DNA of 64,000 bases from Mucilaginibacter sp. UR6-11 (GTDB taxonomy: Bacteria > Bacteroidota > Bacteroidia > Sphingobacteriales > Sphingobacteriaceae). The notes below the pieces were generated by a model, which saw only the letters and a program-made list of their open reading frames with translations, searched no databases and was not told the DNA's origin. The stretch lies in the NCBI RefSeq assembly GCF_020880695.1, contig NZ_JAJIWO010000001.1, positions 1,054,001-1,118,000 of the forward strand, written 5' to 3'. Shown in pieces: positions 7,987-37,659 of this stretch. Both the position numbers and the translations under genes were made by a program. Each line of letters begins with the position of its first letter. Position 1 is the first letter of the stretch.

Positions 7987-8793
7987 ATGAAAAACATTAA
8001 CTATATCGCTTTACTGCTGCTGCTGTTGAACTCCTGCGAAAAGGCCATCGACCTGAAGCTGCCCGACAATACACCTAAATACGTGATCGAGGCGGTACTG
8101 ACCAATGAAGCCGGTGGCTGCCGCGTGGCCATCTCGCAAACCAAAGCCTTCACCGGCGACAATACTTTTACGGGCGTCAGCGGCGCTACTGTCACCATCA
8201 GCAGCAACGGAAGCGCTCAAACACTTACCCCCACCGGCACGGGCATTTACCAGCACAGCACGTTTAAGGGCGCTCCGGGAAATACCTACCAGCTGACCGT
8301 ACAGGTTGACGGCAAGACTTTTACCGCCAGCAGTGCCATGCCGCAGCCGGTAGCCTTCGACAGCCTTTATGTAAAAAAAGGTGAGGGCAATAACAAAGAC
8401 GGCAGCCCGCTTCAGTATGCTTTTGCCGGATATAATGATCCCGGGTCAGTTAAAAACTTCTATCGCTTTGTGCAATACGTCAATAACAAAAAGGAAAAGA
8501 CCGTTTTTATTGCCGACGACGAATTCACCAACGGCAATAGCGTGAACAACCGCCTGAGCTTCAGCAATGACAACGATGACCCCGCCCGCAATATTAAAAG
8601 CGGCGAACAACTGACCGTGGAAATGCTTTGCCTGGACCCGGTGGTCTACCAGTACTGGTACAGCCTCAAAAACGGCGCGGGCGGCGACGGTAACAATGCC
8701 GCCCCGTCCAACCCGGATACCAACCTTTCCGGCGGCGCGCTGGGCTATTTCAGTGCACATTTCATTCAGCGAAAAACCATCCTCGTCCTGTAA
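7987..8793 (+). CDS. DUF4249-family lipoprotein
   Basis: Periplasmic-side or surface lipoprotein of unknown function. The signal runs to a lipobox near LLLLNSCEKAIDL (Cys about residue 17), followed by the family-typical PKYVIEAVLTNEAGG opening, an Ig-like part (GVSGATVTISS) and the FYRFVQYVNNKK segment. Length (268 aa) fits DUF4249. It lies three bases after the TonB receptor gene. This pair, with a LytTR kinase/regulator, is a recurring Bacteroidota arrangement, so the lipoprotein probably helps the receptor capture its ligand. It has the same high GC as the receptor. No enzyme motif is visible. Confidence 0.85.
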   Translation: MKNINYIALLLLLLNSCEKAIDLKLPDNTPKYVIEAVLTNEAGGCRVAISQTKAFTGDNTFTGVSGATVTISSNGSAQTLTPTGTGIYQHSTFKGAPGNTYQLTVQVDGKTFTASSAMPQPVAFDSLYVKKGEGNNKDGSPLQYAFAGYNDPGSVKNFYRFVQYVNNKKEKTVFIADDEFTNGNSVNNRLSFSNDNDDPARNIKSGEQLTVEMLCLDPVVYQYWYSLKNGAGGDGNNAAPSNPDTNLSGGALGYFSAHFIQRKTILVL

Positions 8794-8802
8794 CAACTCA
8801 CG

Positions 8803-9012
8803 CTAAATATTAAGAGTGATGACTAACTTGTTCTCTTCAAGGTGTTTCAGTTCTTTTGACAAAACCCTCGTTGTAATTAACGGTAGGCTTCGCTGGATAT
8901 CACGAAAGCGATAATTCCCGCTGTGTATCGCCCGCAATACGGGGAGTTTCCATTTACCACCTACGACAAACAAGGTGTCCTGCAAATACCTCATGGCCTG
9001 TTCCTCTGTCAT
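8803..9012 (-). pseudogene. Truncated HxlR-family transcriptional regulator
   Basis: N-terminal two thirds of a winged-helix HxlR regulator: LFVVGGKWKLPVLRAIHSGN, FRDIQRSLPLITTRVLSKEL and the start of the wing, LEENKLV. The frame then ends abruptly after 69 aa, where family members run to about 100-120 aa. The lost part would contain the wing and dimer helix. The stop lies ten bases from the end of the convergent DUF4249 gene, so the GC-rich cassette probably replaced its 3' end. A functional short form cannot be excluded. Confidence 0.6.
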
Positions 9013-9096
9013 TCCTTTGATAATTAAACGCTTTGGTATCCTTCAGGGTATTGATATCAAAATTACACTGGATTTAGAAATACATTTGCCTAAAAC

Positions 9097-9640
9097 ATGA
9101 TAATAATGGAAACAATAAAAGATATTGACGGCAATGTTTATCACACCATAGCCATCGGTACCCAGGTATGGCTGATAGAAAATTTAAAAACCACCAAATA
9201 TAACGATGGCACTGAAATTCCATTGATATCAGCTCCTGCTGAAGTCTGGTATGCGCTAAATTCACCAGGTTATTGCTGGTACGATGATAAGAAAACTAAT
9301 ACCGGCGCTTTGTATAATTAGCATGCCGTAAATACCGGTAAACTTTGCCCGAAAGGCTGGCACGTACCAACTGATAAAGAATGGTCAATATTGGCAGCAT
9401 TTCTTGGCGGCGAAACGGTAGCAGGTGGAAAAATGAAAACAACCGGTACCGAATCCTGGTCAAGCCCAAACACAGGTGCTACAAATTCAAGTGAATTTAC
9501 AGCTTTATACAGCAGTTTCCGGGGCAAAGGCGGATTTATTCCTTCAAGCAACGGCCTTTATTATTTTGGAGCAGCACAGCGTATGACGATGTGGATGCCT
9601 GGGCGTGGTATTTGCGATTCGACAGGTACAATAGGATGAA
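9097..9640 (+). pseudogene. FISUMP-domain protein gene with stop codon and frameshift
   Basis: Remnant of a Fibrobacter succinogenes major paralogous (FISUMP, TIGR02145-like) domain protein. The first part has the classic DIDGNVYHTIAIGTQVWLIE and YNDGTEIPL segments. At 9319 a TAG interrupts GALYN/HAVNTGKLCPKGWHVP, where the family has Trp, so this is a likely TGG-to-TAG change. The second part runs through GGKMKTTGTESWSSPNTGAT. Near 9568 the frame is lost: the expected WSSTAYDDVDAWAWYLRFD continues in the next frame (one base missing or two extra). No signal peptide is seen, so the 5' end may also be missing. The decayed tail meets the convergent GH106-like gene. Confidence 0.75.
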
Positions 9641-24538: not shown

Positions 24539-27500
24539 TTAAAAAGTTGCTTGTATACCTAAAGTGATCACGCGCAATGGAGGAAGAAACTGGAACCCAA
24601 ACGAACCTGGAGTTTCCGGATCCATTCCTTTGTATTTGGTGATGGTTAGCAAGTTCTGGCCCTGCAGATAAAGACGCGCGTTTGAAATGGACAGCGTCTT
24701 GCAAACATTTTCTGGCAATTTCCATGACAACGACGCATTTTTTAACCGGATATAAGACGCATCCGAATAACCCGCATTGCTATTTACTGCATAAAAATAT
24801 TGCCCGAAGTTGGACCCACTTGCACTAAACTTTTGAATGGTTGCCTGATCGTTTGGATGTGTCCATACGTTATTTAATATTGAAACCGGCTGATTACCAC
24901 TGTAATAACCACCGGGATCGCTACTACCAAAAACATCGTTAGCGCCAATTTGCTTAGTAAAACTAAACAGGAATTGTAGAGAAAGGGATTTATAGCTAAA
25001 ACTGTTTTGCAGGCCGCCATAAAACTTTGGAGATGTATTTATTACTTCCGTTGCGTCGGCAAGCGTACCAAAATAATTGGGGTTTTCAGTGAGCTGGCCA
25101 TTTCTGTCAATAAATTGGTAATTGCCGTCTCCTGGATTTACTCCAGCAAATTTCAAGACTCTTTGAATGGTTATAGGCCGGCCTATAATATATGTATTTG
25201 CGAAGCTGGATGTGGCGAGTCCCGGGTAAGCAACAAGTTTATTAGTTGGTATGGTAAGGTTAAAATTGGTAGTCCAGTTGAAATCTTTCGTCTTAATATT
25301 TATTGATGTTGCTGTGAACTCAAGCGAAGTATTCTGAACAGTTGCCGGCAAATTCTGCGATATGGAATTATACCCTGTAATAATCGGAAGCGGATATGGG
25401 AGCAATTCATTAGAAGACCGGTTGATCGCGTAATTTGCGGATAGCAACAAGCGATCCTTAAAAAAACCCAGGTCAAAACCGAAGTTCGCCTTTTTGGTCA
25501 ATTCCCATTGTAAATAGGGGTTGGGAAGGCCTTGTGTTTTTAGGCCGAGATTTCCTTGATAGGCGTACCCTGGCACATAAGAATATTGTGTGAGAAAACG
25601 GTAGTCGCCGATCTGATCATTGCCGGTAGTGCCGAAACTAGCTTTGAGCTTGCCAAAGCTTAAAAATGGCAGCGTATTTTGCACCAGGCTTTCTTTGGAA
25701 AATATCCACGCCACCGCTGCCGAACCAAAATTATGAAACTCGTTTTCAGCACCGAAACGGCTGCTACCATCCCGGCGTATGGCGAACTCTGCAAGATATT
25801 CATCGTTAAGATTATAGTTAATCCTTCCAAAAATGGCGGAATAATTATATTGTGATATTGTGGCTGACGAAAATGTTTGCTGTGCAGCAGCGGGGTCGGT
25901 TAGTTGAAGATCTGTGTAGTAATTCACACCTTTATAGGTATCGCTGGACATATTTTGACGCTGCAATGTCATCCCTGCAAGCACATCGAGTTTTCCTTTC
26001 GCTAATGTCTTGACATAGTTGAGTTGTGGTTCGATGATCCAGGAATGAACATTTGCATATAGATAGTTCGCGCTGTTTTCTGATTGTGCCCGTACCTCCG
26101 GATCCAGCGCTGATAAAGGGTTGGTAGTGGTTTGGTCGATTTGGATGTTCGTATATCCAAAGCTGCTTTTAAGCTGTAAACCAGGCACCAGTTGGTAACT
26201 AATTAATGCATGGCTTTCCAGGTTATTGGTATTACTGGCGAAAGAATTCAATAAATTAGCAACAGGATTCCCAAAAGGCCAAGTTGAACTTCCCTGTGAA
26301 TTCGGCGCCCAATTGAAAGTGCCGTCTGGATTATATAAGGGTGGGGAATTCGGCGCAGAAAATGAAGCGAGAAAAGTCGGATCAGTCTGCGGTAATTTGT
26401 TGTCGTCATTTAGAAAGCTGCCTGACATCTGAAACTTGAATTTTTTATTGTCCGATGAGGTATTTAGGTTAAAGTGTACCGAGGCCTTTTGGTCCGCAAA
26501 ATCGCCAGGAAATACGGTGGTTTCCCGATGATAGCCCGCACCAACCAGGAACTGCGTGTTTTCAGTACCGCCTGAAACGGACCCTTGACCGTCCAGGTAA
26601 TGAGAATTATTGCCCAATAGCACTTTTTGCCAATCAGTAAAACTGTTGCTATTCCATATTTTCAGGTCAGGTGCATAGCCCGGATCAGCAGGATCTGCAC
26701 TCGGTGTAACACCATCGTTAGCCATAGCTTGATTGCGCATAGCTAAGTATTGCTGTGTATTCAGTTCAGGCACTTCTCTTGTAATATGCCCGAAACCATT
26801 CTGCACATTCACGCTGATTGTTGTTTTCCCAACTTTGCCTTTCTTGGTGGTAATAAGTATCGCACCGTTAGCTGCCCTTGAACCATAAACGGACGTCGCT
26901 TCAGCATCCTTTAGGATTTCAATGCTTTCGATGTCTGCAGGATTGATATAGGCTAAAGGGCTACCTGCCACCGGGCCGTTTAAATTAACAGCGCCTCCTG
27001 GCCAAATATTACTTCCCAGATTTGGTGGTAATTCTGAGATATAGGGTACGCCGTCTATGACATACAATGGGTCATTGCCACTGAGGAAGCTGTTTTGGCC
27101 CTGTATCCGTACGGTCACTGTGGAACCCGGTACACCGTTACCCTGCGTGATGAATATGCCAGGAACGCGTCCTTCAAGCGACAACAAAGGATCGGCCACC
27201 GGCTGGTTTTCTATTTCTTTAGCAGAAACAGAGGTGATATTACCCGTCGTAAGGCGCCGTGAGGTTTCCCCATAGGCAATTACCTGCACGGCATCCAAGG
27301 GGGTGGTAGCCACTACTAGCTTGATGATACCCATATCTGCTTGCGCGGGCAGTTCTTGCTTCTGATACCCGATAAAGGAAATGACGATGGTAGCGTTATC
27401 TGCTACATTTTTAAGATGGAATGCCCCCTTTGAATCGGTTACGTCGGCGTTGCCAGTGCCTTTAACGGTTACTGTCGCGCCGGAAATTGGGCGATGTTGC

Positions 27501-27934
27501 TCGTCTACGACAATACCGATAACGCCTGTTTGATTAAGACTGAGGGCATTTTTAAGTTTGTCGAGAAGGCTTGGCTGTTTAATTAGAACTACAACTGATT
27601 TATCTTCAATAGAATAGTCGAGAGATTGTCCCTCGAAGATCTTATTTAGCACTTCCATTAATTCGCCGTTTTTTACAGTGATAGTCACGGTTTTGGCTTG
27701 GTCAATTACTTTGCCAGCGATCGCGAAGTCGTAACCGGTTTGCCTTTTGATTTGGGTAAGGACGCTGGTGAGCGGTTCATTTGTAACGGAGAGAGTAACC
27801 TTTTGCGCAAGGGAACTTGCGCTTACCTGCATAAATGCGATAAATAGCATAAGCGTGGTTAACTTCATGACCCGAAATAGCTTTTTAGTATAGCCAGGCG
27901 GCAATACAAAGTGTTCTGAATAAATTTTGTACAT
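24539..27934 (-). CDS. SusC/RagA-type TonB-linked outer membrane protein with STN domain
   Basis: Large TonB-dependent porin of 1131 aa. In order: signal region (FRVMKLTTLMLFIAFMQVSA), a secretin/TonB short N-terminal (STN) signalling domain at about residues 45-120, a carboxypeptidase-regulatory-like domain from GVIGIVVDEQHRPISGATVT, the plug with SVYGSRAANGAILITTKKGK and DPLYVIDGVPY, and the barrel ending in VITLGIQATF. The STN domain marks receptors that pass ligand information to a FecR anti-sigma factor. Exactly such a gene, and an ECF sigma gene, lie upstream on the same strand. The start at 27934 gives the MYKIYS...LPPGYTKKL leader commonly seen in this family. Confidence 0.95.
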   Translation of the reverse strand: MYKIYSEHFVLPPGYTKKLFRVMKLTTLMLFIAFMQVSASSLAQKVTLSVTNEPLTSVLTQIKRQTGYDFAIAGKVIDQAKTVTITVKNGELMEVLNKIFEGQSLDYSIEDKSVVVLIKQPSLLDKLKNALSLNQTGVIGIVVDEQHRPISGATVTVKGTGNADVTDSKGAFHLKNVADNATIVISFIGYQKQELPAQADMGIIKLVVATTPLDAVQVIAYGETSRRLTTGNITSVSAKEIENQPVADPLLSLEGRVPGIFITQGNGVPGSTVTVRIQGQNSFLSGNDPLYVIDGVPYISELPPNLGSNIWPGGAVNLNGPVAGSPLAYINPADIESIEILKDAEATSVYGSRAANGAILITTKKGKVGKTTISVNVQNGFGHITREVPELNTQQYLAMRNQAMANDGVTPSADPADPGYAPDLKIWNSNSFTDWQKVLLGNNSHYLDGQGSVSGGTENTQFLVGAGYHRETTVFPGDFADQKASVHFNLNTSSDNKKFKFQMSGSFLNDDNKLPQTDPTFLASFSAPNSPPLYNPDGTFNWAPNSQGSSTWPFGNPVANLLNSFASNTNNLESHALISYQLVPGLQLKSSFGYTNIQIDQTTTNPLSALDPEVRAQSENSANYLYANVHSWIIEPQLNYVKTLAKGKLDVLAGMTLQRQNMSSDTYKGVNYYTDLQLTDPAAAQQTFSSATISQYNYSAIFGRINYNLNDEYLAEFAIRRDGSSRFGAENEFHNFGSAAVAWIFSKESLVQNTLPFLSFGKLKASFGTTGNDQIGDYRFLTQYSYVPGYAYQGNLGLKTQGLPNPYLQWELTKKANFGFDLGFFKDRLLLSANYAINRSSNELLPYPLPIITGYNSISQNLPATVQNTSLEFTATSINIKTKDFNWTTNFNLTIPTNKLVAYPGLATSSFANTYIIGRPITIQRVLKFAGVNPGDGNYQFIDRNGQLTENPNYFGTLADATEVINTSPKFYGGLQNSFSYKSLSLQFLFSFTKQIGANDVFGSSDPGGYYSGNQPVSILNNVWTHPNDQATIQKFSASGSNFGQYFYAVNSNAGYSDASYIRLKNASLSWKLPENVCKTLSISNARLYLQGQNLLTITKYKGMDPETPGSFGFQFLPPLRVITLGIQATF

Positions 27935-28087
27935 TTGCTTAGTGAGGGTTGTGCGTTTGCCTTTCGTTTTCCAGACTGCAGGGCGGACGCGGTTCTTAAA
28001 TAGTTTTAATTAATGGTTTGGGCAATCCTTTCATAAGTCATCCGGTTACCGCCAGGTGACTTTTTTACTGATAGCCGTGAGGAAAGT

Positions 28088-29170
28088 TTATTCGATAATG
28101 ATTACCCTCCTCCCTTCGATCTTAAAGTGTACGTCTTTGGTGTTTTGGAGTATTTTCAATGCGGCACTGATGTTCCGGTCCCGGCTGATATCGGCGAAGA
28201 AAACTTCATTGGTCACCGGACCTTGGTAAATCACGTCGATGTTGTACCAGCGGCTTAATTGCCGCATTACCGATTGAATGTTGTCGCCTTCAAAATGAAA
28301 GTTGCCGTTCTTCCAGGCAGTAACGATCTCGGTATTGACCGTTTTAATATTTTTGCCGTCGGTTTGCTGACCAGGAATCAAAGTCAGGTTATTTACTTTA
28401 ACTCTCCCTTCTACCAGCGTGGTGCGGGTCGCGGATTCGTCAGAATAGGCATTCACGTCGAATATGGTGCCGATGTCTTCGATGGTTTGTTTGACGGTTT
28501 GTACTTTAAATGGCTGGCGGGCGTTATGCTTCACCTCGAACAAAGCCTCCCCGGTAATTTTGACTATCCGTGCATTGCCCTTAAAGGCGGTCGGGAAAGT
28601 GATACTCGATGCGGTATTGAGCCAAACTTTGGTACCATCGGATAAAACCAGCGGGCAGGGCAATTGCTCGCCCCGCGCGGTGGTCAAAGTATTATAACTA
28701 AACTGATTTTCTGACTTATTTGCATCATAAATAATAGCGTTTTGTTTTGCACTAATGATTGTGCTATTCTGCACCGCCAGTTTGCCTTCCAGCCCCTTGG
28801 TCAAAACAATCTTTTGGCCATTGGCTAAGGTTAATGTGGCTTGGTTACGGCCTGGTGCGATGTCATTTTTGACAACTTGCTGCGTCGGTTGCTGTTGCCT
28901 ATGAAAGACAAAATACCCAGCAGTTGAACAAGCGATCAGGATGGACGCTGCTGCCGCGGCCCTTAGCCAAAACGTCACCAATTTTTTATCGGGCGCTTTT
29001 TTCACGATCTTGCCCCACATCTCATCTTTTAGCTGGATGAGGTCGTCTTCCGAAAAATCGGCCTGATGATTTGTTTCTAAATGATGAAACCAATTTTCAA
29101 GTAGAATCCGTTCTTCTTCAGAACATAAACCCGCCTTATATTTTTCCCATAATGCCCTGGCGTTTTCCAT
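28088..29170 (-). CDS. FecR-family anti-sigma factor
   Basis: Inner membrane regulator that holds the ECF sigma factor until the SusC STN domain signals. I start it at ATG 29170 (MENARALWEKYKAG), because the 27-residue extension to 29251 is not family-like. The N-terminal cytoplasmic helices include CSEEERILLENWF. A single membrane helix is at about residues 68-86 (AAAASILIACSTAGYFVF). The periplasmic FecR domain has VLSDGTKVWLNTASSITFP and ITGEALFEVKHNARQPF. The C-terminal DUF4974 part has VMRQLSRWYNIDVIYQG. At 360 aa it is normal. It lies between the sigma gene and the SusC gene. Confidence 0.93.
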   Translation of the reverse strand: MENARALWEKYKAGLCSEEERILLENWFHHLETNHQADFSEDDLIQLKDEMWGKIVKKAPDKKLVTFWLRAAAAASILIACSTAGYFVFHRQQQPTQQVVKNDIAPGRNQATLTLANGQKIVLTKGLEGKLAVQNSTIISAKQNAIIYDANKSENQFSYNTLTTARGEQLPCPLVLSDGTKVWLNTASSITFPTAFKGNARIVKITGEALFEVKHNARQPFKVQTVKQTIEDIGTIFDVNAYSDESATRTTLVEGRVKVNNLTLIPGQQTDGKNIKTVNTEIVTAWKNGNFHFEGDNIQSVMRQLSRWYNIDVIYQGPVTNEVFFADISRDRNISAALKILQNTKDVHFKIEGRRVIIIE

Positions 29171-29356
29171 GTTTATCTCGTGATATTTAATGTCAGCTAT
29201 TTCACTGAACAACACTGTATAATATCCACGACAAACTTTACATGAGGGCAAGGTACAAGTGTGTGAAATAAATTTTAAGAAATCGTTAAGTTATGTTTTG
29301 ATAAAGGAAAATTCAGGCGAATAGGACTTAAATACAGTTTTTATATTTTTGTTCAA

Positions 29357-29923
29357 CTATACAAAACATGCAAGAATAAGCATTCCCAATTTAACTCGCA
29401 AAACTTTTAGGGCTCTCTTGACTTGTGTGGAGACAGTATGTTCTGAAATGTCCAGACTTTGCGCTATCTCTTTATAGGTTAGGTGTTCCTTACGGCTAAG
29501 TTCAAAAATTTCCCGCATTTTGCATGGCAGGTCGGCTATCCCCTTTTCGATCGTTAGAGCAATATCCTTCTCCCGGATTTGATAATCAGCTCCTGCCTCA
29601 TACTGGCTCAGAAAGCCTTGCAGCGATTGGAGGTATTTGTCTTCCATTTTTTTTCGGGAAAAAACATTCATTGACCGGTTACGTACGGCACTATATAAAT
29701 AAGCGGATAATGAAGTTGTCAAGGAAAAATGTTCATGGCAGGTCCACAACGCAATGAAAACTTCCTGTATAACATCCTTTGTTTCTTCCCGGCAATTCAA
29801 TTTTTTATAAGCGAAGATATAAAGCAGACTATAATAACGGACGTAAATCTCCAGAAAAGCGTCGTGATTACCCTCTTTTAAAAGGACAGCCAATTCTTGA
29901 TCTGTGAAATTATTATATACCAT
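29357..29923 (-). CDS. ECF RNA polymerase sigma factor (sigma-70 family, Bacteroidetes type)
   Basis: Extracytoplasmic-function sigma factor of 188 aa. Region 2 lies at about residues 25-95 (YSLLYIFAYKKLNCREETKD, IQEVFIALWTCHEHF, SAVRNRSMNVFSRKKMEDKY). Region 4 lies at about 125-180, with the helix-turn-helix YKEIAQSLDISEHTVSTQVK. It is the first gene of the minus-strand sigma-FecR-SusC-SusD set, 186 bases upstream of the FecR start. It should direct transcription of that set once FecR releases it. The signal is presumably the ligand of the SusCD pair, which the sequence does not reveal. Confidence 0.95.
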   Translation of the reverse strand: MVYNNFTDQELAVLLKEGNHDAFLEIYVRYYSLLYIFAYKKLNCREETKDVIQEVFIALWTCHEHFSLTTSLSAYLYSAVRNRSMNVFSRKKMEDKYLQSLQGFLSQYEAGADYQIREKDIALTIEKGIADLPCKMREIFELSRKEHLTYKEIAQSLDISEHTVSTQVKRALKVLRVKLGMLILACFV

Positions 29924-30556: not shown

Positions 30557-30704
30557 CTAAAGAAACTTTGTAAGTAAGCAAAGCCCGGAATATACCACCT
30601 GTAAAAAACATTCGTAAGCCGTCTTACGATATTTAAACCCACCCACATAATTTTAATGGGATAATTATTTTTCGTATCATTGTTTAGAATTAGACTAAAT
30701 AACA

Positions 30705-31331
30705 TTGATAGAAATATTAATAGCTGATAACCAAACTTTAACCCGCGAAGGCGTGAAAGCCCTGTTGGCTACTATGGTAGATATTAATATTGCAGCCAGT
30801 GCCGCCTATCCTATCGAGCTGGAAAAACTCATCAATACCTATGAACCCGCAGTTGTTTTACTTGATCCTTATTATAGCCGGCGATTTACGGTTGATGACG
30901 TCAGGCACATTATGGCCAGGTATCCGCATGTCCGCATTTTGATATTATCAAACCGCCAAAACCGCGAGCAGATACAGGAAATACTTGACCTTGGCATTAA
31001 AAATTATGTTTTTAAAGAGTGCAGCCGTGAAGAACTGGTTTATGCTGTGTACTCGACCGCAAAAGGTGAACAATTTTTCTGCAAAAACATTTTCGAAACC
31101 CTTTTTGGTAACAAACTTATTCCCGAAAAAGCTGATACGCTTCCACAGCTGTCTTCACGCGAAACAGAACTTATCTACCTGATAGCGGATGGATTGACCA
31201 ACAACGAAATAGCTGAAAAGCTATTTTTAAGCGTGCATACCATTAAAACGCACCGGAAAAACATCATCAGGAAATTAGGTTTTACATTTAAAAACACTGC
31301 CGAGCTGGCAGCCCTGCTCCAAAAACGTTAG
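30705..31331 (+). CDS. NarL/LuxR-family response regulator
   Basis: DNA-binding response regulator of 208 aa. The receiver domain covers about residues 1-120, with ILIADNQTLTREGV, a phosphoacceptor Asp in VVLLDPYYS and a Lys in NYVFKECS. The C-terminal LuxR helix-turn-helix has LSSRETELIYLIADGLTNNE and AEKLFLSVHTIKTHRKNI. The start is a TTG at 30705. I see no ATG giving a complete receiver domain. No kinase gene is adjacent. It lies 95 bases upstream of, and in the same direction as, the DUF4856/imelysin/HTTM/TonB receptor operon, and is the most likely regulator of it. Confidence 0.9.
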   Translation: MIEILIADNQTLTREGVKALLATMVDINIAASAAYPIELEKLINTYEPAVVLLDPYYSRRFTVDDVRHIMARYPHVRILILSNRQNREQIQEILDLGIKNYVFKECSREELVYAVYSTAKGEQFFCKNIFETLFGNKLIPEKADTLPQLSSRETELIYLIADGLTNNEIAEKLFLSVHTIKTHRKNIIRKLGFTFKNTAELAALLQKR

Positions 31332-31354
31332 TTTTATTTAGACTTATTATAAAT

Positions 31355-31401
31355 TACCTCCTTGGGGGTATTGCTCGGCGCAGAGGGGGGTACTACTTTT
31401 G
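31355..31401 (+). promoter_or_regulatory. Promoter of the imelysin operon with paired GGGGGTA repeats
   Basis: TACTTTTG at 31394-31401 fits the Bacteroidota -7 box TAnnTTTG, 25 bases before the DUF4856 ATG. Upstream, GGGGGTA occurs twice (31364-31370 and 31386-31392), spaced 22 bases, or two helical turns. The first copy is half of an imperfect palindrome TACCTCCTTGGGGGTA (31355-31370). This suggests a dimeric activator site, plausibly for the LuxR-type regulator upstream. Confidence 0.5.
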
Positions 31402-31426
31402 TCAGGAAATAAAACTACAACATCAA

Positions 31427-32518
31427 ATGAAAAAATATCTATCAATACTTAGTGCTTTAACTATAGCCTTCATGCTTATTACCGGCTGTAAAAAAAATGA
31501 CCCGACTACCGAGCCTGTACCTGTTTATACAGTGCCGACCACTTACAATTTTACCAACGCCAATTTTGCTGATGCGACTACCCGCTTGGGTATGTACACC
31601 GAAATTTCAAATCTGATGAAAAATGCGCTTACTGGCACATTTGATGCTGCGAAAGCCAAGGCCATGCTTACCAACACCGGCGCCCCGTTTACAACAGCGG
31701 CCTACAATACATCGGGCTTACAACTTAATGACCAGTTTGCCCCTGTATTTAAAACAGATGCAATAAGTTTTATTGACAGCTTAGCTAAGGCAAGTGCCGC
31801 CGCTTCAACTCCGGCAAGCCGGGGTAAAGCAGGTGTTGGGGCAAGCTCTGCAAATGCTGCATCTAAATATGCTTTAACCAGTTTAGGTGTTAACTATGCC
31901 CAGGTATTTAATAAAGGGCTAATGGGTGGTTTGGTTACTTACCAAATTGTTACAACAATGGATGCTGTTGCTAACCAAGCTATTGATAATACAGCAATAG
32001 TTAATGGCGCCACAGCGATGGAGCATGCCTGGGATCTGGCTTTTGGTTACTGGGGCGTTCCTGTTGATTTCCCTACCAACAAAACAGGCGCTAAACTTTG
32101 GGGTAGCTATAGCACACAGGTCGACTCGGGTTATAAAGCCAATACTATATTAATGACCGCCTTTTTAAAAGGCAGGGCAGCCATCAGCGCTAAAGACAAA
32201 GCAACTTTTGTTGCGCAGGCTAAGATCATTATCACTACGATGGAAAGATTAACCGGCGCCGCTGCCCTACAGGAAGTTAAAGAAGCCAAAGCCGCTATCA
32301 GCGATAATATATTAAGAAACAGCCGTGTATCTGAAATGTATGGCTTTGTTTACTCACTAAAATATAATCCAAAAAGGGTTATTACAGATACACAGTATAA
32401 CGCGCTGCTGGCATTGTTCCCGAAGAGTTATTACGACTTAACATTAACTGATGTTAACGCAATAAGGGATGCCGTTGCCAATCAATATGACTTTAACAGT
32501 GTAAAGGACATACTATAA
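31427..32518 (+). CDS. DUF4856-family lipoprotein
   Basis: Exported lipoprotein of 363 aa and unknown function. The lipobox lies in MLITGCKKND (Cys about residue 21). The protein then has the TYNFTNANFADATTRLGMYT opening of DUF4856 and a largely helical body, with AMEHAWDLAFGYWGVPVDFP in the middle and FVYSLKYNPKRVIT near the end. It is the first gene of a four-gene operon with an imelysin-family lipoprotein, an HTTM membrane protein and a FecA-like receptor, suggesting a role in metal (probably iron) handling at the cell surface. A strong hairpin directly after this gene may limit read-through to the next. Confidence 0.83.
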   Translation: MKKYLSILSALTIAFMLITGCKKNDPTTEPVPVYTVPTTYNFTNANFADATTRLGMYTEISNLMKNALTGTFDAAKAKAMLTNTGAPFTTAAYNTSGLQLNDQFAPVFKTDAISFIDSLAKASAAASTPASRGKAGVGASSANAASKYALTSLGVNYAQVFNKGLMGGLVTYQIVTTMDAVANQAIDNTAIVNGATAMEHAWDLAFGYWGVPVDFPTNKTGAKLWGSYSTQVDSGYKANTILMTAFLKGRAAISAKDKATFVAQAKIIITTMERLTGAAALQEVKEAKAAISDNILRNSRVSEMYGFVYSLKYNPKRVITDTQYNALLALFPKSYYDLTLTDVNAIRDAVANQYDFNSVKDIL

Positions 32519-32553
32519 TTAAAAATCAGTAATAGTTAATATATACAAAAAGT

Positions 32554-32587
32554 AACCATCCGCACCTTAAACCGTGCGGATGGTTTT
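32554..32587 (+). terminator. Strong hairpin with T-run between DUF4856 and imelysin genes
   Basis: AACCATCCGCAC pairs perfectly with GTGCGGATGGTT around an 8-base loop, followed by TTTT. It sits 36 bases after the DUF4856 stop and 18 bases before the imelysin ATG. It should act as a partial terminator or as a stabiliser of the first-gene message, setting different levels for the first gene and the rest of the operon. Confidence 0.75.
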
Positions 32588-32604
32588 ACTATAAATAACA
32601 AACA

Positions 32605-33714
32605 ATGAAAAAAATTATATGCCTGGCTTTAACAGCCGCCGTTTCACTAATACTCATACAATCCTGCTCAAAATCAGGCGCAGGAGATAATAACAATAAC
32701 ACAGGTTCATCCTTTGATCGTAAGGCCATGTTGACCAATATAAGCACCAATATAATTATACCCGCTTATACATCGTACCAGGCCGCAGCTGTCAGCCTGG
32801 ATGCAGCCGTAGTTACCTTCAATACCACACCCACCCTTGCTAATTTAACCGCTTTACAAAACGCCTTTACCGCAACCTATAAACAATGGCAATCAACCTC
32901 AGTTTATGATTTTGGGCCGGCGGCCGATGTAAATTTGCGGGTAAACACCAACACCTATCCGGTTGACGTTAACCAGATCAATGCAAATGTATCTTTGGGC
33001 ACTTACAATCCACAGTTATTATCTAACCTGGCTGCAAAAGGCTTACCGGCACTTGATTATCTGTTATTCAATCTGGGCGGCGATAACGCTGCAGTTTTAG
33101 CGCTGTTTACTACTGACAGCAAGGCTGCAAACCGCAAAACTTATCTTGCCGCGTTATCCGCCGAATTAAAAACAAACGCGACAACTGTTTTAAACGCCTG
33201 GAGCGGATCTTATAAAACCACCTTTTTAAATGCTACCGGGACTGATGCCAGCAGCTCGACCGGCTACCTGGTTAACCAGTTGGTTTATGATTATGAAGTA
33301 CTTAAAAATTTCGAGGTTGGTATCCCTGCTGGTTCACAATCAATGGGCGTTACCTATCCAACCAAGGTGCAGGCCTATTATTCAAAAATATCATTACAAC
33401 TAACCCTGTTGCATTTGCAGGCTATACAAAATTTATATCTGGGCGCAAATGGTTCGGGCTTTGATGACTACCTGGTGGCTGCCAACGCCAAATACAATGG
33501 CGGCTCGCTTAATGATGCTATTAAAGCACAGTTTACAACCGCCGCCGCTAAACTGCAAACCTTAACCGACCCTTTATCAGCAAACATAACCAATAACCCG
33601 ACAGCGGTTATGGCAGCGTATACCGAGTTACAAAAACTAACGGTTTTGCTAAAAACTGATATGACCTCATCATTAGGTATCGCAATTACATTTGGGGATA
33701 ACGACGGAGACTAA
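32605..33714 (+). CDS. Imelysin-family lipoprotein (peptidase M75-like)
   Basis: Exported lipoprotein of 369 aa, lipobox in LILIQSCSKSG (Cys about residue 21). The helical imelysin fold is indicated by TNISTNIIIPAYTSYQAAAV at the start of the mature domain, YKQWQSTSVYDFGPAADVNL, the typical GLPALDYLLFNLGGDN, and a second repeat with NQLVYDYEVLKNFEVGIPAG. Imelysins are linked to iron uptake in several bacteria, although most are not proven peptidases. The classical GxHxxE motif is not evident here. The HTTM gene follows after two bases. A periplasmic or surface iron-binding role is an inference from family and operon. Confidence 0.87.
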   Translation: MKKIICLALTAAVSLILIQSCSKSGAGDNNNNTGSSFDRKAMLTNISTNIIIPAYTSYQAAAVSLDAAVVTFNTTPTLANLTALQNAFTATYKQWQSTSVYDFGPAADVNLRVNTNTYPVDVNQINANVSLGTYNPQLLSNLAAKGLPALDYLLFNLGGDNAAVLALFTTDSKAANRKTYLAALSAELKTNATTVLNAWSGSYKTTFLNATGTDASSSTGYLVNQLVYDYEVLKNFEVGIPAGSQSMGVTYPTKVQAYYSKISLQLTLLHLQAIQNLYLGANGSGFDDYLVAANAKYNGGSLNDAIKAQFTTAAAKLQTLTDPLSANITNNPTAVMAAYTELQKLTVLLKTDMTSSLGIAITFGDNDGD

Positions 33715-33716
33715 AA

Positions 33717-35087
33717 ATGCCTGATACCTTAACGGCCCGTATTAATACGCTTATAAAAGCACCGGTACATATTGCTCCCCTTGCCGTCCTCAGGATAGCA
33801 TTTGGGAGCATTATGCTTGTCAGCACATTACGTTTTATTTTAAAAGGATGGATCTATGCCTTTTACCTAAAACCGCCGTTCCATTTCACTTTTTATGGAT
33901 TTGACTGGATGAAAGTGCCGCCGGGCAACACTCTTTACGTTTTATTTGGCTTATTGGTAATTACAGCTATTATGGTAACTGTCGGCCTGTTTTACAGGGC
34001 CGCTATTATAACTTTTTTTGTATGCTTTACTTATGTGGAGTTGCTTGACAAAACCACCTACCTTAACCATTATTACTTTATAAGTGTAATGGCCTTTTTA
34101 ATGATATGGGTACCGGCACACCGCTATTTTTCTGTTGATGTATGGCGTAAGCCTAAATTGGCGGTAACCAGTATCCCCGGCTGGACTATCAATATATTTA
34201 AGCTGCAACTGGTACTGGTTTATTTTTTTGCGGGATTATCCAAATTAAATTACGATTGGCTGATAGCGGCTATGCCGCTTAAAATATGGTTGCCGGCTAA
34301 CAGCAACATGCCCGTAATTGGCGGGTTGCTTACCCAGGTTTGGGTAGCGTATATCTTTAGCTGGTTCGGGGCGATATTCGATCTGTTTATTGGATTTTTG
34401 TTACTTAGCAACCGGTATCGCAGATGGGCATATGTGTTGGTTTTAATCTTCCATTTGTCAACAGGCTTGTTTTTTAAGATCGGCATGTTCCCCTATATCA
34501 TGATACTGGTAACCCTTATTTTCTTTTCAGAGAAAACCCATATCAGGATCATCAATTTTTTAAAGCTGTTATTGCCCCGTGCCAATAGCACTATCCCCAA
34601 TAAAGCGTACCACCTGCCCGTATTTAAAACGCAGTTTATTTATGGGATATTGATTTTGCATTTTATTATACAACTAATCATGCCTTTCAGATTTTTAATG
34701 TACCCTGGTAAGCTCTATTGGACAGAAGAAGGTTACCGTTTTTCGTGGCGCGTTATGCTGATGGAAAAAGGCGGCACTATTTTTTTCCATGTAAAAGACC
34801 CCGCATCAGGCACTAAAACAGAGGTTATCAACTCACAATACCTCAATACTTTCCAGGAAAACCAAATGGCTACCCAGCCGGATATGATATTGCAATACGC
34901 ACATTTCCTGGCTGCCGAGTATCAAAAAAAAGGGATTAAAAATCCGATAGTAACTACGGATAGCTATGTTACCTTAAATGGAAGCGGCAGCAGGTTATAT
35001 ATTGACAGCACTGTAAACCTGGCTACCCAGCAAGAGGGTTTCGGCCATAAAAAATGGATCCGTCCATTTAGCACAACCAGCAAATGA
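33717..35087 (+). CDS. HTTM-domain membrane protein related to vitamin K-dependent gamma-carboxylase
   Basis: Integral membrane protein of 456 aa with about eight hydrophobic helices in the first 320 residues and an extracytoplasmic C-terminal domain. The family signature is clear: KTTYLNHYYFISVMAFL (His118), VYFFAGLSKLNYDW (Lys176) and a C-terminal YVTLNGSGSRLYID segment. In the animal gamma-glutamyl carboxylase, the His of the NNH segment and the second Lys of GVKKLDADW are catalytic (His160 and Lys218 in human numbering, from memory). Both positions appear kept here. It lies two bases after the imelysin gene and overlaps the receptor gene by four. The activity of bacterial relatives is largely unknown, so modification of a neighbouring lipoprotein is only a hypothesis. 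Confidence 0.85.
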   Translation: MPDTLTARINTLIKAPVHIAPLAVLRIAFGSIMLVSTLRFILKGWIYAFYLKPPFHFTFYGFDWMKVPPGNTLYVLFGLLVITAIMVTVGLFYRAAIITFFVCFTYVELLDKTTYLNHYYFISVMAFLMIWVPAHRYFSVDVWRKPKLAVTSIPGWTINIFKLQLVLVYFFAGLSKLNYDWLIAAMPLKIWLPANSNMPVIGGLLTQVWVAYIFSWFGAIFDLFIGFLLLSNRYRRWAYVLVLIFHLSTGLFFKIGMFPYIMILVTLIFFSEKTHIRIINFLKLLLPRANSTIPNKAYHLPVFKTQFIYGILILHFIIQLIMPFRFLMYPGKLYWTEEGYRFSWRVMLMEKGGTIFFHVKDPASGTKTEVINSQYLNTFQENQMATQPDMILQYAHFLAAEYQKKGIKNPIVTTDSYVTLNGSGSRLYIDSTVNLATQQEGFGHKKWIRPFSTTSK

Positions 35088-37510
35088 AATACTTATATAT
35101 ATTATTATTCTTATTTAGCGGGCTGACGTTGTCGGCACAAACTTTTTCAATAACCGGTACGGTTAAAGACATTTCGGGTAACGCCGTTTCCAATGCCGGT
35201 GTTTCATTAAAAAATACCGGTTACTCAACCCGATGCGATAGCACCGGAAATTTCATATTAACGGTTACGGCGGGTAATTACGATCTGGTAACAACCGCTG
35301 TGGGTTATAAAACCGCCAGCCGTACTTTTAAAGTAGCGCATGATTTAACTGTCAACATAATTTTGGCCGAAGATATGCAACAGCTAAAAACGGTTGATGT
35401 AAATTCTGTCAAACAAAAAACATTTGGTATCACCCATTTAAAGTCTGTTGAGGGTACAACTATCAACGCCGGTAAAAAAAGTGAGGTTATTGTGCTGGAT
35501 GATATCACGGCCAACAAATCAACCAACAACACCCGGCAGATCTATGCCAAGGTAGCCGGCTTAAACATTTGGGAGAGCGATGGCGCAGGCATACAACTAG
35601 GGATAGGTGGCCGCGGGCTAAACCCTAACCGGGTAACTAATTTTAATACCCGTCAAAATGGCTACGATATCAGCGCGGATGCGTTGGGTTACCCGGAAAG
35701 TTATTACACTCCGCCGGCCGAATTAACCAGCCGCATAGAGATTTTACGCGGTGCATCGTCATTGCAATATGGTACACAATTTGGCGGTATCATCAACTTC
35801 AAATTAAGAGAGGGCGCAGCCGGCAAGCCCATTGAAATAACGGCCAACGAAACTGCAGGTTCATGGAACTTTTTTAATACCAGCACCAGCATTGGAGGCA
35901 CGGTAAAAAAGCTGCGTTATTACGCCTATTATCAGCATAAACAAGGTGACGGCTGGCGGCCAAACGGGCACTTCAATGATAACACAGCCTATACAAGTAT
36001 TACCTATAGCCTCAATAATAAGTTAGATATAACCATCCAGTACACTTATATGCAGTACCTGGCCCATCAGCCGGGCGGCCTTACTGATGCCCAATTTGCA
36101 ACCGATCCAAGACAATCTATCCGGACGCGTAACTGGTTTAAAGTAAACTGGAACCTGGGTGCTATGCTATTAGATTATAAGATCAGCGATAACTTAAAAT
36201 TCAATTCCCGGTTTTTTGGCTTATATGCCGGGCGCGATGCAGTAGGCAGTATTGATTACAGTAATACTATTGACTATGGCGGCGACCGAAAATTATACCG
36301 GGATAAGTACAAAAATTATGGTAATGAAAGCCGGTTGTTATATACTTACAATATTGGCGGTAATTTGCAAAACCTGTTAGTTGGCGCAAGATATTATCAT
36401 GGCCATACAGATCGCCAGCAAGGTTTTGGCAATAATGGGTCAACCGGCACCAGCACGGATTTTGATTACGGTACGTCAACTGCCGATCTAAATGGATACT
36501 CGCATTATAACTTTCCTAACTATAACCTGGCTTTTTTTGCCGAAAACATCTTCCGGATTACTCCTAAGTTAAGCATCATACCGGGCGTAAGATTTGAAAA
36601 TATCGTTACCAAAGCTGCCGGTTCATTTAGTATTGTTAATACCGATCAATCAGGTAATGTTATTTACAGAAAAGACAGTGTTGACAATAAAAACAGCACC
36701 CGGCATTTTCTTATTGCCGGCTTGGGCTTAAGTTATTACCAAAGCCAGGCGTTACAGTTTTATGGCAATATATCGCAAAACTACCGGGCCATTAATTTTA
36801 ACGATCTAAACTCGAGTGTAAAAGGTTTGGTAGTTGATCCTAACCTGAAGGATGAAACAGGCTATTCGGCTGATTTAGGGGTCAGAGGAAATATAGCAGA
36901 CATCTTTGATTATGACCTAAGCCTGTTTGCGATCCATTATAATAACCGTATTGGCAGCAGCCAGGCAAATGACGCCAGTTTTAATACCTTCAGATACCGT
37001 ACCAATATCGGCGCATCAAGAAATGTAGGACTTGAGTCGTTTGCAGAGCTGGAACTGCTGCATTTTATAACGGATAATACGTCGGACACCAGGCTATCGT
37101 TATTTAGTAATTTGGCACTGATTAATGCAAAATACACGGTTACAAAAGGACATGCATTCGATGGTAAAAAGGTGGAGTTTGCACCCGACGTCGTATTTAA
37201 ATCTGGCTTAACGTATCGCCAGAAAAAATTTACAGCCAGTTACCAGGCAGCATACACCAGCCAACAATTTGGCGATGCTACCAACGCTTTAACCCCGGCA
37301 GCAAATGCTATCATCGGGCCGATCCCTGCTTACGCGGTGATGGATCTCTCAGCAAGCTACAAACTCAATAAAATATTTACCCTGCAAGGCTCATGCAACA
37401 ACCTAACAGACAAGCGTTATTTTACCCGCCGCGCAGAAAGCTATCCCGGCCCAGGCATTATTCCCTCAGATGCCAGGGGGTATTACTTAACCTTACAGGT
37501 AAAACTGTAA
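35084..37510 (+). CDS. FecA-like TonB-dependent receptor
   Basis: Outer membrane receptor of 808 aa. It has a signal peptide (YILLFLFSGLTLSAQ), a carboxypeptidase-regulatory-like domain (about residues 20-100, FSITGTVKDISGNAVSNAGV), a plug with ARQIYAKVAGLNIWE-like start, SRIEILRGASSLQYGTQFGG and INFKLREGA, and a barrel ending YYLTLQVKL. The barrel segment LVVDPNLKDETGYSADLGVR is typical of the Fe(3+)-dicitrate receptor branch. It has no N-terminal STN signalling domain, so control is not through a FecR system. It overlaps the HTTM gene by four bases and ends the operon. An iron-complex ligand is likely but not proven. Confidence 0.9.
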   Translation: MKYLYILLFLFSGLTLSAQTFSITGTVKDISGNAVSNAGVSLKNTGYSTRCDSTGNFILTVTAGNYDLVTTAVGYKTASRTFKVAHDLTVNIILAEDMQQLKTVDVNSVKQKTFGITHLKSVEGTTINAGKKSEVIVLDDITANKSTNNTRQIYAKVAGLNIWESDGAGIQLGIGGRGLNPNRVTNFNTRQNGYDISADALGYPESYYTPPAELTSRIEILRGASSLQYGTQFGGIINFKLREGAAGKPIEITANETAGSWNFFNTSTSIGGTVKKLRYYAYYQHKQGDGWRPNGHFNDNTAYTSITYSLNNKLDITIQYTYMQYLAHQPGGLTDAQFATDPRQSIRTRNWFKVNWNLGAMLLDYKISDNLKFNSRFFGLYAGRDAVGSIDYSNTIDYGGDRKLYRDKYKNYGNESRLLYTYNIGGNLQNLLVGARYYHGHTDRQQGFGNNGSTGTSTDFDYGTSTADLNGYSHYNFPNYNLAFFAENIFRITPKLSIIPGVRFENIVTKAAGSFSIVNTDQSGNVIYRKDSVDNKNSTRHFLIAGLGLSYYQSQALQFYGNISQNYRAINFNDLNSSVKGLVVDPNLKDETGYSADLGVRGNIADIFDYDLSLFAIHYNNRIGSSQANDASFNTFRYRTNIGASRNVGLESFAELELLHFITDNTSDTRLSLFSNLALINAKYTVTKGHAFDGKKVEFAPDVVFKSGLTYRQKKFTASYQAAYTSQQFGDATNALTPAANAIIGPIPAYAVMDLSASYKLNKIFTLQGSCNNLTDKRYFTRRAESYPGPGIIPSDARGYYLTLQVKL

Positions 37511-37632: not shown

Positions 37633-37659
37633 AAGGCCCCTGATGGGCAGGGGCCTTTA
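37633..37659 (+). terminator. Intrinsic terminator after the imelysin operon
   Basis: AAGGCCCCTG pairs with CAGGGGCCTT around a 5-base loop, followed by a short T stretch (TTTACT). It lies 123 bases after the receptor stop, in the right place to end the operon transcript. Confidence 0.7.

Follow-up and report, generated by a model that had tools for sequence, protein, structure and literature searches.

In a 64,000-nucleotide stretch of the Mucilaginibacter sp. UR6-11 genome (the window, by which we mean the whole of the DNA analyzed), four consecutive genes encode a DUF4856 lipoprotein, an imelysin lipoprotein, a membrane enzyme of the family of the human vitamin K-dependent carboxylase GGCX, and a FecA-like TonB-dependent receptor. 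Taken as a whole, they are best explained as a Fur-repressed iron operon whose GGCX-type enzyme most likely gamma-carboxylates glutamates of a lipoprotein, an explanation to which we give an even chance. The individual parts belong to known families; what is new is their combination, a variant form of the imelysin operon, and this conserved iron operon is apparently without a name of its own. In the papers searched, all from outside subscription journals, we found it discussed nowhere: none of them joins HTTM proteins with imelysin or mentions DUF4856, and the sole paper found that contains both imelysin and a vitamin K carboxylase only tabulates the genes. The four genes are as follows.

31427..32518, + strand: DUF4856 (PF16148) lipoprotein, 363 amino acids, lipobox Cys21, Pfam score 100 bits
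32605..33714, + strand: imelysin (PF09375, Peptidase_M75) lipoprotein, 369 amino acids, lipobox Cys21
33717..35087, + strand: HTTM/VKGC enzyme of the GGCX family, 456 amino acids, with an HTTM domain (residues 16-272) and a VKGC lumenal, here periplasmic, domain (residues 305-452)
35084..37510, + strand: FecA-like TonB-dependent receptor, 808 amino acids, with an N-terminal carboxypeptidase-regulatory-like domain, plug and barrel

A preliminary description of this DNA, made from its letters without database searches, had read four tightly packed genes here, with gaps of +2 and -4 bases between the last three. The open reading frames and Pfam agree with it: the intergenic gaps are 86 bases (DUF4856-imelysin), +2 (imelysin-HTTM) and -4 (HTTM-receptor), and all four proteins score well above the Pfam cut-offs. 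The window genome holds one imelysin gene and one HTTM protein. The best solved relative of the receptor is E. coli FecA (1.9e-21); since it scores only 98 bits against the NCBI FecA equivalog, far under the cut-off of 1100, we call it FecA-like rather than FecA.

To assess how widely this arrangement occurs, we used 296 Bacteroidota genomes, sampled evenly. The VKGC lumenal domain was present in 69 of them, and 71 loci where an HTTM open reading frame was called were read out. Stable linkage of the four genes in related genomes had been set as a check by the preliminary description, and it was found. The order DUF4856-imelysin-HTTM-receptor was seen in 47 of the 71 loci, and five more lacked DUF4856 only. 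The nearest relatives, taken as the best 80 of a contig scan, came from Bacteroidota, Rhodothermota, Balneolota and a Chlorobi-like metagenome-assembled genome; 70 of these 80 had all four genes, and a single one of the 70 departed from the common order. The closest operons were in other Mucilaginibacter genomes, with enzyme identity of up to 80%. Across the 296 genomes, DUF4856 and VKGC occurred together in 46 of the 50 genomes with DUF4856 (odds ratio 111), and imelysin and VKGC together in 62/71 (odds ratio 215), with p-values that are too small owing to shared ancestry among the genomes. The physical linkage, seen in divergent families, is independent of these p-values. The gene order is far beyond chance, and within Bacteroidota the operon is both old and stable.

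A tree of the enzymes placed those of the operon in one group with 99% support, which takes in Bacteroidota, Rhodothermota and Balneolota and also includes a few members whose loci are rearranged or isolated. VKGC enzymes from other contexts lie outside this group. Presence is patchy within the genus itself, where 17 of 121 genomes had the VKGC lumenal domain. Bacteroidota also have stand-alone VKGC paralogues, which are of the same family and share the catalytic His and Lys but have no adjoining imelysin or receptor. Those of Flavobacteriaceae, which lie between riboflavin-kinase/FAD-synthetase and seryl-tRNA synthetase genes (loci L061, positions 8000-9500, L076 and L081), fall on separate branches of the tree. 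Another stand-alone member of the same enzyme family is carried by a Paracoccus albus plasmid.

Regulation points to iron. The flavobacterial Fur box is published as ATTTAGAATTATTCTAAAT (PMC5609570), and two palindromes like it flank a response regulator gene that precedes the operon.

30682..30700, + strand: Fur-box-like palindrome GTTTAGAATTAGACTAAAT, three mismatches to the flavobacterial box, just 5' of the response regulator
30705..31331, + strand: LuxR-type response regulator, 208 amino acids, start uncertain
31336..31354, + strand: Fur-box-like palindrome ATTTAGACTTATTATAAAT, two mismatches, 72 bases upstream of the start codon of DUF4856

These are the only two sites with three or fewer mismatches in the 64 kb, where 0.03 would be expected. 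A site with four or fewer mismatches was found upstream of 45 of 51 operons, compared to about 1 expected from shuffles. Genome-wide, the motif with up to two mismatches was not enriched (32 sites versus 50 in a reversed control), so that only the best sites and their conservation across species were counted. Elsewhere in the genome the best sites precede ccmE/ccmF and the genes for glutamyl-tRNA reductase (hemA), aconitase, a TonB receptor, a subunit of NADH dehydrogenase and a multihaem cytochrome. Together, the genes downstream of these predicted sites are a coherent iron regulon. A Fur gene is also encoded in the genome.

Published expression data are consistent with this. In Riemerella anatipestifer, genes with the consecutive tags RAYM_09779-09794, annotated as receptor, vitamin K-dependent gamma-carboxylase, imelysin and hypothetical protein, all rise on iron restriction and in a fur mutant (PMC5609570). 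They carry the same annotations as the operon described here and are Fur- and iron-regulated; the match is one of annotation, the fourth gene being labeled only hypothetical, and the passages that list the genes do not discuss the carboxylase. Outer-membrane vesicles of Tenacibaculum maritimum grown in iron-chelated medium are rich in a FecA homologue, together with four associated imelysin-like lipoproteins (PMC10288586). The preliminary description had noted that imelysins are linked to iron, and this connection is strengthened by the Fur-box-like sites, the Fur gene and the Riemerella data. We consider it very likely that the operon, through its putative Fur sites, serves Fur-controlled iron uptake.

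The imelysin is a clear member of its family (131.7 bits against Peptidase_M75, cut-off 23.5; best solved relatives 3n8u and 3pf0). Its GxHxxE motif is degenerate, reading GLPALD in the window, which sets it outside the canonical ICMP type; 104 of the 129 operon copies have a P where the motif has its His. The motif resembles that of the IPPA class (GxxxxE), with D in place of E. The C-terminal -DGD is present and is conserved in 128 of the 129 copies.

According to Xu 2011 (PMC3143127), EfeB-like di-haem peroxidases accompany imelysins in nearly every case. Two imelysins flank such a peroxidase in the Pseudomonas aeruginosa operon (PMC3143127), and Leptospira lruB, which is induced under iron limitation, has the same arrangement (PMC13066512). 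The operon described here shares with those of P. aeruginosa (PA4370-PA4373) and lruB a Fur- or iron-regulated envelope imelysin, whose cluster contains, or has close by, genes for an enzyme and for a TonB receptor (PMC3143127, PMC13066512). It differs from them in that a GGCX-family enzyme stands where they have a di-haem oxidoreductase (DHOR), a DUF4856 lipoprotein takes the place of a canonical imelysin, and its own imelysin is of the degenerate-motif class.

Of 89 imelysin genes in the 296 genomes, 85 lay within 4.5 kb of VKGC (63) or DHOR (28), including six near both; two of the four near neither enzyme were at contig ends. High-scoring, canonical imelysins occurred with DHOR (20/21) and low-scoring ones with VKGC (61/68). 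It appears that VKGC fills the enzyme (peroxidase) slot of the known imelysin iron-uptake operon, and the alternation of DHOR and VKGC is the best explanation of the operon. DHOR (PF06537) was not found in the window genome. In six other loci (L040, L092, L123, L165, L173 and L175), DHOR and a further imelysin gene adjoin the VKGC operon.

One possibility is that the enzyme simply replaces the di-haem peroxidase in a menaquinol-linked redox step on iron, acting on its oxidation state or release, with no protein being modified. A common role would be economical, as imelysin genes pair with DHOR or VKGC and both are envelope redox enzymes. However, no metal or haem site is known in VKGC, its conserved residues are those of the GGCX base and Glu chemistry, and the imelysin genes near both enzymes indicate that the two are not strictly exclusive. 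This explanation is distinctly unlikely in our judgment. The reading that we prefer, modification of a partner protein, resembles the MbnP/MbnH copper pair, where an oxidative envelope enzyme makes a metal-binding group on its partner beside a TonB receptor. MbnH is a di-haem enzyme that makes kynurenine for copper, and it is not known to be related to VKGC in sequence.

The enzyme was compared with human GGCX in several ways. Its HTTM domain (PF05090) scored 270 bits and its VKGC_lumenal_dom (PF22777) 181 bits, with a cut-off of 27.7 for each. The phmmer program aligned enzyme residues 8-451 with residues 50-505 of human GGCX (E 3e-35 to ~4e-35), pairing N117 with N159, H118 with H160 and K176 with K218. 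An AlphaFold2 model built from 21 homologues (predicted local distance difference test score, pLDDT, 88) superposed on GGCX (9wfc_A, VIA-align) over 446 residues spanning GGCX 42-509, with a Z of 32.1 and a root-mean-square deviation of 3.2 Å; among the entries listed by the fold search, the best beyond GGCX was a single chain at Z 9, with others lower. The preliminary description had placed His118 and Lys176 at the catalytic His160 and Lys218 of the human enzyme, and it had asked for an alignment with GGCX. The pairing proved to be the same, and in the sequence alignment no other residues occupy those positions.

34068..34070, + strand: codon of His118, equivalent to human GGCX H160 by alignment, invariant in 129 of 129 operon copies
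34242..34244, + strand: codon of Lys176, equivalent to human GGCX K218 (catalytic base) by alignment, invariant in 129 of 129 operon copies

This protein is certainly a true member of the GGCX/VKGC family. In human GGCX, H160 stabilizes the carbanion. Cryo-electron microscopy of the human enzyme identified K218 as the base that deprotonates vitamin K hydroquinone, showed the substrate Glu to be held by N159, H160 and Y395, and found the quinol pocket to be lined by V210, A214, W223, G259, F286, F294 and F299 (PMC12589487). Among the 129 operon-linked enzyme homologues, N117, H118, A172, K176, W181, F245, H246 and F258 are invariant, and seven of these (N117, H118, K176, W181, F245, H246 and F258) correspond to human N159, H160, K218, W223, F286, H287 and F299. 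G218 is kept in 128 and F253 (human F294) in 127 of the 129, while V168 varies between V, I and L and Y340 between Y and F. The equivalents of the vitamin K pocket residues are kept in 121-129 of 129; the exceptions are human M401, which is V throughout, and N290, which is T in 128. The likeness to human GGCX (9bvk, 9l6q, 9wfc) thus covers the transmembrane domain and the first lumenal part over GGCX 42-509, with K218, H160, N159 and nearly all of the vitamin K pocket, and the predicted quinol and base chemistry is very likely retained.

It could be speculated that the operon is an ordinary iron operon in which the HTTM protein has become non-catalytic and serves the lipoproteins as a scaffold or chaperone. 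Structural roles are common among the membrane proteins of receptor operons, and the substrate exosite of GGCX has been lost here. However, a scaffold would be expected to lose catalytic residues in some lineages, so the invariance of the catalytic His and Lys and of nearly the whole quinol pocket in 129 sequences, despite a mean column identity of ~51% in the 21-sequence alignment, speaks against this. We regard a scaffold as very improbable.

If the enzyme is a carboxylase, the two lipoproteins are candidate substrates. As the preliminary description had observed, they are not unusually Glu-rich; in fact, the window copies are exceptionally Glu-poor, with four Glu in the imelysin and seven in DUF4856 (~1.1% and 1.9% of residues, respectively, in the window's clade, against family medians of ~5%). 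A Glu-rich lipoprotein serving as an obvious gamma-carboxyglutamate (Gla) domain was rejected. The few Glu leave a short list of possible Gla sites: E187, E231, E237 and E341 in the imelysin and, in DUF4856, E59, E199, E273, E283, E286 and above all E303. E303 was invariant in 116/116 DUF4856 sequences, usually in an H-x-x-S-E context; it is one of three family-invariant residues, the others being K163 and Y228. Mirror-tree correlations, calculated as a way to pick out the partner of the enzyme, were 0.85-0.89 for every pair and favored none.

Several findings weigh against carboxylation of a lipoprotein. The imelysin of the window has the low Glu count given above, no Glu is invariant in the 129 operon copies of this protein (at E231, for example, 100 have E and 26 have D), and no DUF4856 is detectable in some operons that lie clear of contig ends. 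The proposal in the preliminary description that a partner lipoprotein is the substrate gains from the invariance of E303 and loses from the lack of an invariant imelysin Glu and from the operons in which DUF4856 is missing. The enzyme ends at the equivalent of GGCX ~510, so that GGCX 510-758 is missing, and with it the remaining part of the propeptide-binding domain as well as the Arch domain, which hold substrates in humans; we therefore file the protein in the VKGC family and not as a GGCX orthologue. On the substrate side, human N158 is replaced by L, R436 by Q or M, K217 by A or S, and M401 by V in the 129 copies. Substrate recognition must differ from that of human GGCX, the enzyme that matures blood-clotting factors, and we know of no propeptide substrates for the operon enzyme. 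The Leptospira homologue reportedly epoxidises vitamin K but does not carboxylate a Glu peptide. Finally, the window genome differs from the human system in having no match to VKOR (PF07884), and in the 296 genomes VKOR and VKGC showed no co-occurrence (16/69 with VKGC versus 56/227 without).

VKOR was rejected as a cofactor-recycling partner of the enzyme since the two do not track each other in the phylum. Epoxide recycling may perhaps be unneeded in a menaquinone-making cell, where fresh menaquinone could be used instead.

Another possibility is that the iron operon and the menaquinol/O2 chemistry are as we propose and that the product is not Gla in a lipoprotein. The receptor or another envelope protein might be modified, or the enzyme might act as a quinol epoxidase or oxygen-consuming enzyme, with the base used, for example, on an imported chelate. 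The quinol pocket and base are kept more strictly than the substrate-side residues, the propeptide exosite of GGCX is missing, and the constant downstream neighbor is the receptor. Neither lipoprotein has a Glu that is invariant and found in every operon, which leaves room for the receptor and for non-protein substrates as rivals. On the other hand, the equivalents of N159 and H160, which contact the substrate Glu in GGCX (PMC12589487), are conserved in 129/129 copies, which is unexpected if epoxidation alone mattered. We consider such a different product rather unlikely.

Under the preferred explanation, the FecA-like receptor would take an iron source across the outer membrane, with the imelysin and DUF4856 lipoproteins as its partners there. 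The VKGC enzyme, in the place that DHOR occupies in classical imelysin operons, would use inner-membrane menaquinol and O2 to form a strong base at the periplasmic face, and this base would serve to modify an envelope partner on its way through. In the likeliest case, one or more Glu of a lipoprotein would be gamma-carboxylated, enabling that lipoprotein to bind iron or calcium to suit the receptor system. The steps differ in strength. The predicted menaquinol/O2-driven chemistry at the periplasmic face is probable, given the conserved residues. Gamma-carboxylation of some envelope protein is a prediction that we favor slightly. That a co-encoded lipoprotein is the substrate falls somewhat short of an even chance, and it is only tentatively that we propose the general case, in which Bacteroidota put Gla in outer-membrane lipoproteins by means of a menaquinol-dependent, Fur-controlled carboxylase, thereby making malonate-type metal ligands for iron uptake.

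These data tie one large, old clade of bacterial VKGC to iron acquisition by gene order, co-occurrence and Fur control, and the family gains a likely job and a short list of candidate substrates. They also widen the known link between imelysin and di-haem peroxidases: the partner can be one or the other of two oxidative enzymes that are unrelated to each other, and this strongly hints at what imelysins require. Should Gla be present, it would represent a new way to make metal-binding proteins in bacteria; there would be bacterial Gla metalloproteins, a physiological role for GGCX homologues, and a parallel to the di-haem-enzyme branch of imelysins.

The gap between the first two genes of the operon contains a hairpin.

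32554..32585, + strand: intercistronic hairpin between DUF4856 and imelysin, 12-bp stem, minimum free energy -22.4, z -5.7

A strong hairpin was present in 69 of 77 operons with a DUF4856-imelysin gap of 40-130 bases, compared to 68 of 226 control gaps, and the stem sequences vary from operon to operon. This would be consistent with more DUF4856 being made than protein from the downstream genes, and the hairpin may set their stoichiometry. An excess would be expected of a binding protein or substrate rather than of a catalyst.

The DUF4856 protein was modeled with a pLDDT of 93.5, and a fold search with the model brought up no clear relative, the best hit having a Z of 7.0 and imelysin 3n8u one of 5.9. 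In hhalign, the match between DUF4856 and imelysin was confined to their signal peptides. Two of seven DUF4856 proteins scanned had weak matches to the FEA1-related lipoprotein family of NCBIfam, far below its cut-off of 250 bits: the window copy scored 22.7 and the other 25.8. FEA1 is an algal iron-assimilation protein.

The response regulator precedes the operon only in the Mucilaginibacter/Pedobacter/Spirosoma clade (loci L105-L114 and L118). Spirosoma arboris (L109), of the Cytophagaceae, has the same five-gene cassette, response regulator included, with 68-69% enzyme identity, which suggests that the five genes were transferred horizontally.

A further hairpin follows the receptor gene.

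37633..37657, + strand: terminator-like hairpin 3' of the receptor, with a stem readable on both strands

Beside the operon, on the - strand at 24539-29923, the list of open reading frames reads as an unrelated cluster encoding a SusC/RagA-like receptor, a probable FecR-type anti-sigma factor and an extracytoplasmic function (ECF)-type sigma factor.

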